Positions 24,001 to 27,000 of a stretch of 64,000 nt of DNA are shown in pieces. The notes under the pieces were generated by a model, which worked only from the letters and a program-made list of their open reading frames with translations, had not been told where the DNA came from and searched no databases. The DNA lies in the NCBI RefSeq assembly GCF_037975245.1, contig NC_092574.1:7626213-7690212 (forward strand). Direction: 5' to 3'. Origin of the DNA: Apostichopus japonicus. Its lineage: Eukaryota > Echinodermata > Holothuroidea > Aspidochirotida > Stichopodidae. The translations under genes and the position numbers were made by a program. Numbering within the stretch: the stretch's first letter is position 1; every line of letters begins with the position of its first letter.

Positions 24001-27000
24001 ATTGTGGCACAATTTCATATCTCCAGCTCTTGTCTCCTAAAATGCAGGATAACGCAAAGACAGCAATCTTTATTACCTGTCTGTTGGTATTATTCACCAC
24101 TACATTATATACACCAAAAGGTTGCCATCTTTAAGCAACAGGCTGACATCCTTACACAACGCTGTGGCACAATTTCATATTTCCAGCTGTCTCCTATGAC
24201 ATAAGACAATGTAAAGACAGCAATCTTTATTACCTGTCTGTTGTTATTATTAACCACTACATTATATACACCAAAAGGTTGCCATCTTTATGCAACAGGC
24301 TGACATCCTGCCACAACATTGTGGCACAATTTCATATCTCTAGCTCTTGTCTCCTATAATGCAAGATAACGCAAAGACAGCAATCTTTATTACCTGTCTG
24401 TTGCTATTATTAACCACTATATTATATACACCAACAGCTTGCCATCTTTAAGCAACAGGCTGACATCCTTGCACAACATGGTGGCACATATTCATATCTG
24501 CAGCTCTGTCTCCTATAATGTAAGATAGTGCAAAGACAGCAATCTTAATTACCTGTCTGTTGCTATTATTAACCACTATATTATATACACAAAAAGGTTG
24601 CCATCTTTATGCAACAGGCTGACATCCTTGCACAACGTGGTGGCACAATTTCATATCTGCAGCTCTGTCTCCTATGATGAAGACAATGCAAAGAGACAGC
24701 AATCTTCATTACCTGTCTCTTACTATTATTAACCACAATATTACATGCACCAACAGCTTGCCATCTTTATGCAACAGGCTGACATGAAATTTTTTTCATG
24801 ACCTGTCTGTTGTTATTATTAACCACTATAATGTAAGATAGTGCAAGGTCAGCAATCTTCATGACCTGTCTGTTGTTATTATTAACCACTATAATGTAAG
24901 ATAGTGCAAAGAGGGCAATCTTCATTACCTGTCTGTTGTTATTATTAACCACTATAATATAAGATAGTGCACAGACAGCAATCTTCATTACCTGTCTGTT
25001 GCTATTATTAACCACCACATTTTCCCCATCTCTCTTCAAGTTGTGGGTCTCCATGGCGCCAAAGACGTCCGTGTAACTGATCTGAAAGTTCAGTAGAAAG
25101 GTCTCCTCAACGTTGCCATCGAAGTCAAGAACCGATTGCAGACTCTGATGAAGAACCTACAAATGTAATGAGAGGAAAAAACCATCTTCAAGAGAGACGG
25201 GAAGTGAAGGATTGCGAAAACAAGACCATACGAGACCATACGAAACAAGACCATAGGAATCATTCATGACATCGATGGGTTTCATTTCAAACATCTGTTA
25301 CTGAAACACTTTTGGACTTAATTGCGTGACACATTTTTGTGCAAAAGACTGCCTGATTGCTTGTACAGCAACGACTTATTACTCAGCACATGGAGACTTT
25401 GCAATCGACAATTTTGCACAAAAAAAAATTAATTTAAATGCCAATGTTATCTGGGTGTTCTAAACGCAGTGGCAGAGAAAAACTTCCCTTCAAGAAACAA
25501 ATGATCATCCTGCCATCCAAACCTCCTCTGCCCTTTTCTGCACGACCCTTCCCCTGTCACAATTCCCAGATGACTCACCGGATTAACTCCGAACAGATCC
25601 TGAAATGTTCCTTTCCTTCCCATCAGCTTGCGGTATAAAACCATCGGGAAGTTGGCGTCCAGGATGACGTTGTTGTAGATGGCCAACCCTAGGATGATGC
25701 CGATCAGTTTGAACTGGCGATCCGTCTCGAAGGAGTTGGCGTTGAACCAGTAGCATCCCGTGGCATCGTTGAACATGAACATGCCTGGTAATTAAAAAAC
25801 AGGAGGAGGTGCTAGATAGGTAGCCCAATCGTGTACACTATTGTCAAAGAGAAATGTTCACCCACACAGACTGGTATACAAAATGGGTTAGGATATCGAT
25901 TTACAACGGAACACACGCAAAATGAAGACTCGTCTTCCCTTCTATATATATAAATTATATAAATACAAATCAAATTCAAAGGTCAGAAATTTAACTTCCC
26001 ACATTTCATTGTCTTCAGTGTGATTTAACATTACATGGATTTATTACTTTAAAAAAAATATTAAACAAACTTGTGTAACACTTTACTACCGTACAAAGTT
26101 TTGTAACACTTTACTACCGTACAAACTTGTGTAACACTATACTACGGTAAAAACATGTGTGACACTTTACTACCGTACAAACTTGTGTGACACTTTACTA
26201 ACATACAAACTTGTGTAACACTTTACTACCAAACAAACCTGTGTAACACTTTACTATCGTACAAACTTATGTAACACTTTACTACCGTACAAACTTGTGT
26301 AACACTTTACTACCTTACAAACTTGTGTAACACTTTACTACCGTACAAGATACTATCTATCTGTACTTTCAAATTAAAGTACAGTATACTCGTTGACATT
26401 CGTAGACCCGTTCAGCAGACACACCTTGCTACGGCCAGCAGAGTGGTGTACTCAGAATGCAAGTTTGCCTACCTATGTCGGGATTGAAAATCTCCTCCAC
26501 GATCAGCTGAAAGAATTCTTTAGAGACACCTCCTTCGTCTACACCCTGTTCACCTTCAAACTCCACATATAGCTGCTTCTTAAGATCCGTTGGGTTCTCC
26601 ATGGCAACCAGTTCAAGCTGAACCAAGATAATATGGACACAACAAAAAATTAGACATTATTTAGCATGATATTTCTTTCACCTTCAAGTACAGTCATCCG
26701 GTTTTTTTTCTTCTAAAATTTACTTTTCCATTACAGCATTATAAACAATTCTGCTTTACTGAACAGAAAAATGTTGACCATCACATTGCTTAAGTGGATA
26801 CACTGGTGGCGCAAGTTAATCGCTAAGCAAAATTGATGAAAAACTTTCCTGAATCCGTAGGCGAAGAACCACATCCTCGTAGCGATATTTTTGTATTACG
26901 AAGATATGAATTTTTCAAATTTCGGGATACTTTTGGCAAACTGCAATCTGGGAACAGCAGAATTGGTTGATGACATCAGGGCAATTCAGCTGAAAATTTC

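Follow-up and report, generated by a model that had tools for sequence, protein, structure and literature searches.

Tandem duplications that cross a splice junction have been described before, and competition between donors is well known, going by the accessible text of the papers concerned. In the RdRp gene of potato, one tandem duplication over a 3' splice site gave a new intron, which was confirmed by 106 RNA reads (PMC4974935). In Caenorhabditis elegans unc-73, a donor doublet was copied 18 nt downstream, and splicing used the copy less often than the original (PMC8865678). In DOK7 intron 4, the choice between two donors 11 nt apart depends on SRSF1, near the distal site, and on the hnRNP A1 context (PMC5585400). 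Within the open-licence literature that we searched, and as far as its accessible text goes, we found no closer precedent for repeat-borne or duplicated splice donors, nor any conserved catalytic domain with nine donor copies arrayed at one of its exons. The literature search also returned no papers on UBE3A of Apostichopus japonicus.

Within a 64,000-nucleotide stretch of the A. japonicus genome (the window, GC content 38.3%) we found a UBE3A gene in which the end of a HECT-domain exon and the adjoining 5' splice site have been multiplied, as the original prediction had stated. The locus resembles the potato RdRp gene: in both, a splice junction lies within a tandem duplication, which carries splicing signals to a new place. 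In potato, however, there is one copy of a 3' splice site and a new intron, whereas UBE3A has nine copies of a 5' splice site, is known from DNA alone, and no new intron is claimed (PMC4974935, accessible text). With DOK7 and unc-73 it shares the arrangement of several donors facing one acceptor; in place of a pair of donors or of doublets 11 or 18 nt apart, respectively, it offers nine near-identical sites over 915 nt in a natural repeat (PMC5585400 and PMC8865678, accessible text). The features are as follows, with the repeat units (U0 to U8) and donors (D0 to D8) numbered outward from the exon.

29984-30451, minus strand: UBE3A AZUL domain (Pfam AZUL, E 3e-17)
25579-25785 and within 21012-21320, minus strand: other UBE3A HECT exons (Pfam)
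24992..25156, minus strand: UBE3A HECT-domain exon, 55 codons, phase 0 end at ...VVNNSNRQ
24990..24991, minus strand: D0, conserved 5' splice site CAG/GTAATG (slash at the exon end), gapless join to the next exon
24953..25015, minus strand: U0, 63 bp, exon tail and intron start (junction search)
24827..24952, minus strand: U1 and U2, 63 bp each, in frame and stop-free with U0 (junction search, unit comparison)
24927-24928, minus strand: D1, GTAATG, in U1
24864-24865, minus strand: D2, GTCATG, in U2
24737..24826, minus strand: U3, 90 bp, with D3 and the stop TAA at 24767-24769 (junction search, frame)
24801-24802, minus strand: D3, GTCATG, in U3
23947..24736, minus strand: U4 to U8, 160, 159, 160, 157 and 154 bp, with D4 to D8 (TRF, junction search, unit comparison)
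24711-24712, 24551-24552, 24392-24393, 24232-24233 and 24075-24076, minus strand: D4, D5, D6, D7 and D8, all past the TAA
23084..23239, minus strand: following UBE3A exon (EFVDLY...), on the acceptor side shared by all donors (E6AP 1c4z 195-246, Pfam HECT 141-191)

The gene was assigned to UBE3A/E6AP by the presence of the N-terminal zinc-binding AZUL domain and by a HECT domain most similar to that of E6AP. Exon 24992-25156 matched six solved chains, all of them UBE3A; exon 23084-23239 matched eight, of which six were UBE3A and E6AP was the best; the C-terminal exon covered Pfam HECT positions 267-305. Exon 24992-25156 matched E6AP 1c4z chain positions 140-193 and Pfam HECT 87-140, and thus adjoins the following exon in both, so that the junction at D0 is gapless and in phase 0, the phase agreeing with the original prediction. 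The last eight residues of the exon (24992-25015) read VVNNSNRQ, compared to IPITNENR in E6AP and IPVTNKNR in another HECT gene of this genome (L019); the T of the latter two is an N in the UBE3A exon tail and in all nine array copies.

The array is a local minisatellite at 23947-25015 that straddles the end of this exon and the next intron; its limit had been placed at 24060 and lies instead at 23947, where the last unit is cut. Its basic unit of about 160 bp combines intron with 24 nt or more of the exon tail, and the units nearest to the exon are shortened to 63 bp, which corresponds to the longer unit minus about 97 bp. TRF resolved two tiers, one of 3.5 copies of 63 bp (24795-25015, 93% matches) and one of 5.3 copies of 160 bp (23947-24785, 88% matches), an array that is far beyond chance. 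An alternative TRF reading of the 160-bp tier, 2.6 copies of 319 bp, suggests joint copying of unit pairs. The junction was repeated eight times downstream, at +63, +126, +189, +279, +439, +598, +758 and +915. The spacing claimed for the nearest three copies was therefore correct, with the remaining units measuring 90-160 bp; their last exonic bases had been given as 24927, 24864 and 24801 and are in fact 24929, 24866 and 24803, followed by 24713, 24553, 24394, 24234 and 24077 in the more distant copies (24992 in the real exon). A loose search of 23240-25156, allowing up to 8 mismatches in 29, recovered these nine junctions with 0-2 mismatches each, and no further copies in that interval. All nine copies contained the two sides of one splice junction, i.e. 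the 24-nt exon tail and the intron start, with CAG/GT intact in every one.

Identities between units were close and mixed (79-95%), and the 24-nt tail was common to all nine with 0-4 differences. U0, which holds the real exon tail and intron start, was 95% identical to U5 over 63 columns, indicating that the array units derive from the UBE3A junction itself. Searches of the 671.6-Mb genome gave, among the matches listed, one match for the protein of exon 24992-25156 and a single match for the array DNA (in a search that skips very common words); accordingly neither a second exon nor a retrocopy, as a record of real splicing, was found among these matches. Further minisatellites lie in the same part of the window, at 26065-26348 (28 bp), 31145-31652 (29/58 bp) and 32330-32607 (22-23 bp). 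Elsewhere in the window, on the plus strand, a 1093-aa open frame at 56700-59981 resembles by eye a Gypsy-type retrotransposon polyprotein and is flanked by identical TATTGTATTA repeats at 55913 and 60050.

The donor nine-mers fell into four types: CAGGTAATG in D0, D1 and D4, CAGGTCATG in D2 and D3, CAGGTAATT in D5, and CAGGTAATA in D6-D8. The original prediction was thus right on D0 and D1 (GTAATG) and on D2 and D3 (GTCATG), and D1 shares with D0 the entire nine-mer and 23 of the 24 upstream bases. Predicted pairing with U1, calculated as a simple duplex with the U1 5' end, was -8.1 kcal/mol for D0, D1 and D4-D8 and -5.6 for D2 and D3, in comparison to -11.6 for CAGGTAAGT and -9.5 for the donor of exon 23084-23239 (AGGGTAAGT). 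By this measure the native donor D0 is not predicted to be strong, and its local sequence cannot be told from that of six of the eight copies.

The frame of exon 24992-25156 stays open through D1, D2 and D3 and past D3 until the TAA at 24769-24767, which is where the original prediction had it close. Judged from the reading frame, D1, D2 and D3 could insert 21, 42 and 63 residues, respectively, without a stop or a frameshift, as predicted. The description of the array as in frame holds for its exon-proximal 63-bp part, but not for the five distal units of 154-160 bp, which each contain a stop and have their donors past the TAA. Every unit from U3 to U8 has a stop in the frame of the exon; D4 (+279) and D8 (+915) are also multiples of three from D0 but lie past the stop, and D5-D7 are additionally shifted in frame. 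For each of U4-U8 we enumerated every internal deletion of 30 nt or more that keeps the first 33 nt and leaves at least 45 nt, and found that 9-32% of these shortenings were a multiple of three and open. The open frame of the 63-bp units is therefore only mildly surprising. Among the codon changes between U0, U1 and U2 three were synonymous and three were not, with an expectation of 22% synonymous for random single changes. Neither the enumerated deletions nor the codon changes make a convincing case for selection on the open frame, and they do not prove selection at the protein level. The inserted stretch is hydrophobic (mean Kyte-Doolittle 2.0-2.4 over 15 residues); the place of such an insert within the HECT structure is not given in the accessible part of a HECT review (PMC6063350). 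The read-through protein showed similarity to ARM_LIN_2nd at 19 bits in Pfam, compared to a cut-off of 27, and this was taken as chance. Recursive splicing or 23-nt micro-exons (TATAG/TGG...CAG/GT) were set aside by eye, the distance from the donor to that AG being 40 nt.

We compared the exon with 40 control loci (L005-L044), hand-picked from 96 HECT matches in this genome, none from UBE3A, with 1 kb on each side; the sample is small and some loci may not be exons of working genes. In 13 of the 40 loci, some of which overlap and share an array, tandem arrays with a period of at least 20 lay no more than about 1 kb from the exon match; these arrays occupied 5891 of 88163 bases. A strict scan for a copied exon tail flagged none of the controls and neither of two other UBE3A exons, and flagged the UBE3A exon with eight copies. 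Three controls were flagged when the scan was widened to 60 nt past the domain match (L005, L019 and L025), and four by a blastn scan of 100 nt to either side (L019, L025, L028 and L032). L005 proved to be a low-complexity C/T tract, and the junction was not included in L028 and L032. By eye, the arrays of L019 and L028 start after the donor, whereas the UBE3A array includes the donor and the coding tail. L025 represents a partial second case and a true copy of tail and donor, i.e. one in 40 control HECT exons: a segment made up of 36 nt of exon tail and 10 nt of intron is found again 384 nt downstream with 87% identity, and the frame closes 12 codons past the real donor. This locus (C14:20709586-20711816, HERC-like by eye) has the two copies at 1232-1277 and 1616-1661 of its reverse strand, and tandem units between them and also in the preceding intron. 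Arrays beside exons are thus ordinary in this genome, and an array that crosses the junction is uncommon, though not unique in this small sample. C-lobe-like HECT matches also occurred in pairs (C8:13964177 with C18:1404730, C12:27832804 with C12:28160161, and C16:29801553 with C17:6333541). The members of each pair have the same score and the same open-frame length (601 or 364 aa), which suggests a multicopy element carrying a HECT-like segment.

We consider it most probable (about 0.7) that a minisatellite has grown across the splice junction of UBE3A, with D0 as the dominant donor, the other sites acting mostly as decoys and insertion isoforms being minor at most. The array copies hold the junction; for the order of events we infer a tandem duplication with its 5' breakpoint inside the exon, 24 nt before the end or possibly 30 nt, since the match of U7 and U8 reaches 30 nt into the exon. 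The 3' breakpoint of this first duplication would have been about 130 nt into the intron, so that exon tail and 5' splice site were copied together, and unequal exchange or slippage would then have amplified the duplication into a minisatellite. Near the exon, a unit that lost about 97 bp would have given the 63-bp type and been amplified again. As the original prediction proposed, unequal exchange might also make the insert vary in length from one individual to another; the array was examined in one haplotype. D0, the donor nearest to the exon, would remain productive and yield the gapless HECT domain, with the other eight serving as decoys. Use of D1, D2 or D3 would introduce the additional residues into the HECT domain with the frame kept, and use of D4-D8 would include the in-frame TAA, leading to a truncated protein and probably to degradation of the transcript. 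Because the 160-bp unit type has a stop, the array would have been tolerated only if D0 won most of the time; in-frame 63-bp units closest to the exon would make leaky donor choice cheaper, and occasional insertion isoforms are plausible.

Dominance of D0 is proposed on the basis of conservation and on the reasoning that harmful donor choice would not have persisted. In beta-globin constructs with equal competing donors, the intron-proximal site is classically preferred. Such a preference would favour D1 or later donors and speaks against dominance of D0. A precedent for choice of the upstream donor, which counts in favour of D0, comes from unc-73 (PMC8865678, accessible text). Published results on donor competition, in the text accessible to us, do not settle which choice is to be expected.

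Regular use of D1, and sometimes of D2 or D3, would lengthen a considerable part of the UBE3A protein by 21-63 residues, giving a ladder of HECT-domain variants made by the repeat. The near-identity of D1 to D0 and its intron-proximal position would fit such use, as would the stop-free units U0-U2 with lengths that are multiples of three; each insert would also end in VVNNNNRQ, so that the start of the next exon would keep nearly its own context. We nevertheless regard it as unlikely, because a hydrophobic insert would break a conserved join, an open frame arises by chance in the proportion of deletions given above, and the codon changes in U0-U2 are without clear constraint. More improbable still appears a poison switch, in which D4-D8 would add a stop, part of the transcripts would be degraded and the UBE3A level would be set by splice choice. 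These donors equal D0 in predicted U1 pairing and lie past the in-frame TAA, CAG/GT is intact in all copies, and the first 40 columns of U4-U8 are less variable than the rest (5/40 vs 25/110). On the other hand, lower variability is weak evidence for selection on the junction among related repeats, and the exon would reach 444 nt with D4 and 1080 nt with D8, which is long for exon definition. That the repeat or its number is an assembly artefact seems very improbable. Tandem arrays are prone to collapse and expansion, and one assembly was examined; the units, however, differ from each other (79-95% identity) and are thus not copies of one read, and a long read would easily span an array of about 1.1 kb, provided that this is the HiFi assembly described in PMC10344927, going by the accessible part of that paper.

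Beyond the growth of a minisatellite with D0 dominant, which we favour, the nine donors might form a bank from which one UBE3A gene obtains HECT domains longer by 0, 21, 42 or 63 residues, depending on splice choice and repeat number, and this process may also act at further junctions in such a repeat-rich genome (compare L025, a second junction copy in another HECT gene); we consider this quite unlikely. The UBE3A array represents a natural competition experiment, in which nine donors of near-equal local sequence face one acceptor from positions spread over 0-915 nt. Its transcripts would tell whether position alone can decide the choice of a 5' splice site in an intact gene. Should insertions occur, the array would further show how a conserved enzyme domain can gain length from a repeat beside its exon while the frame is kept.
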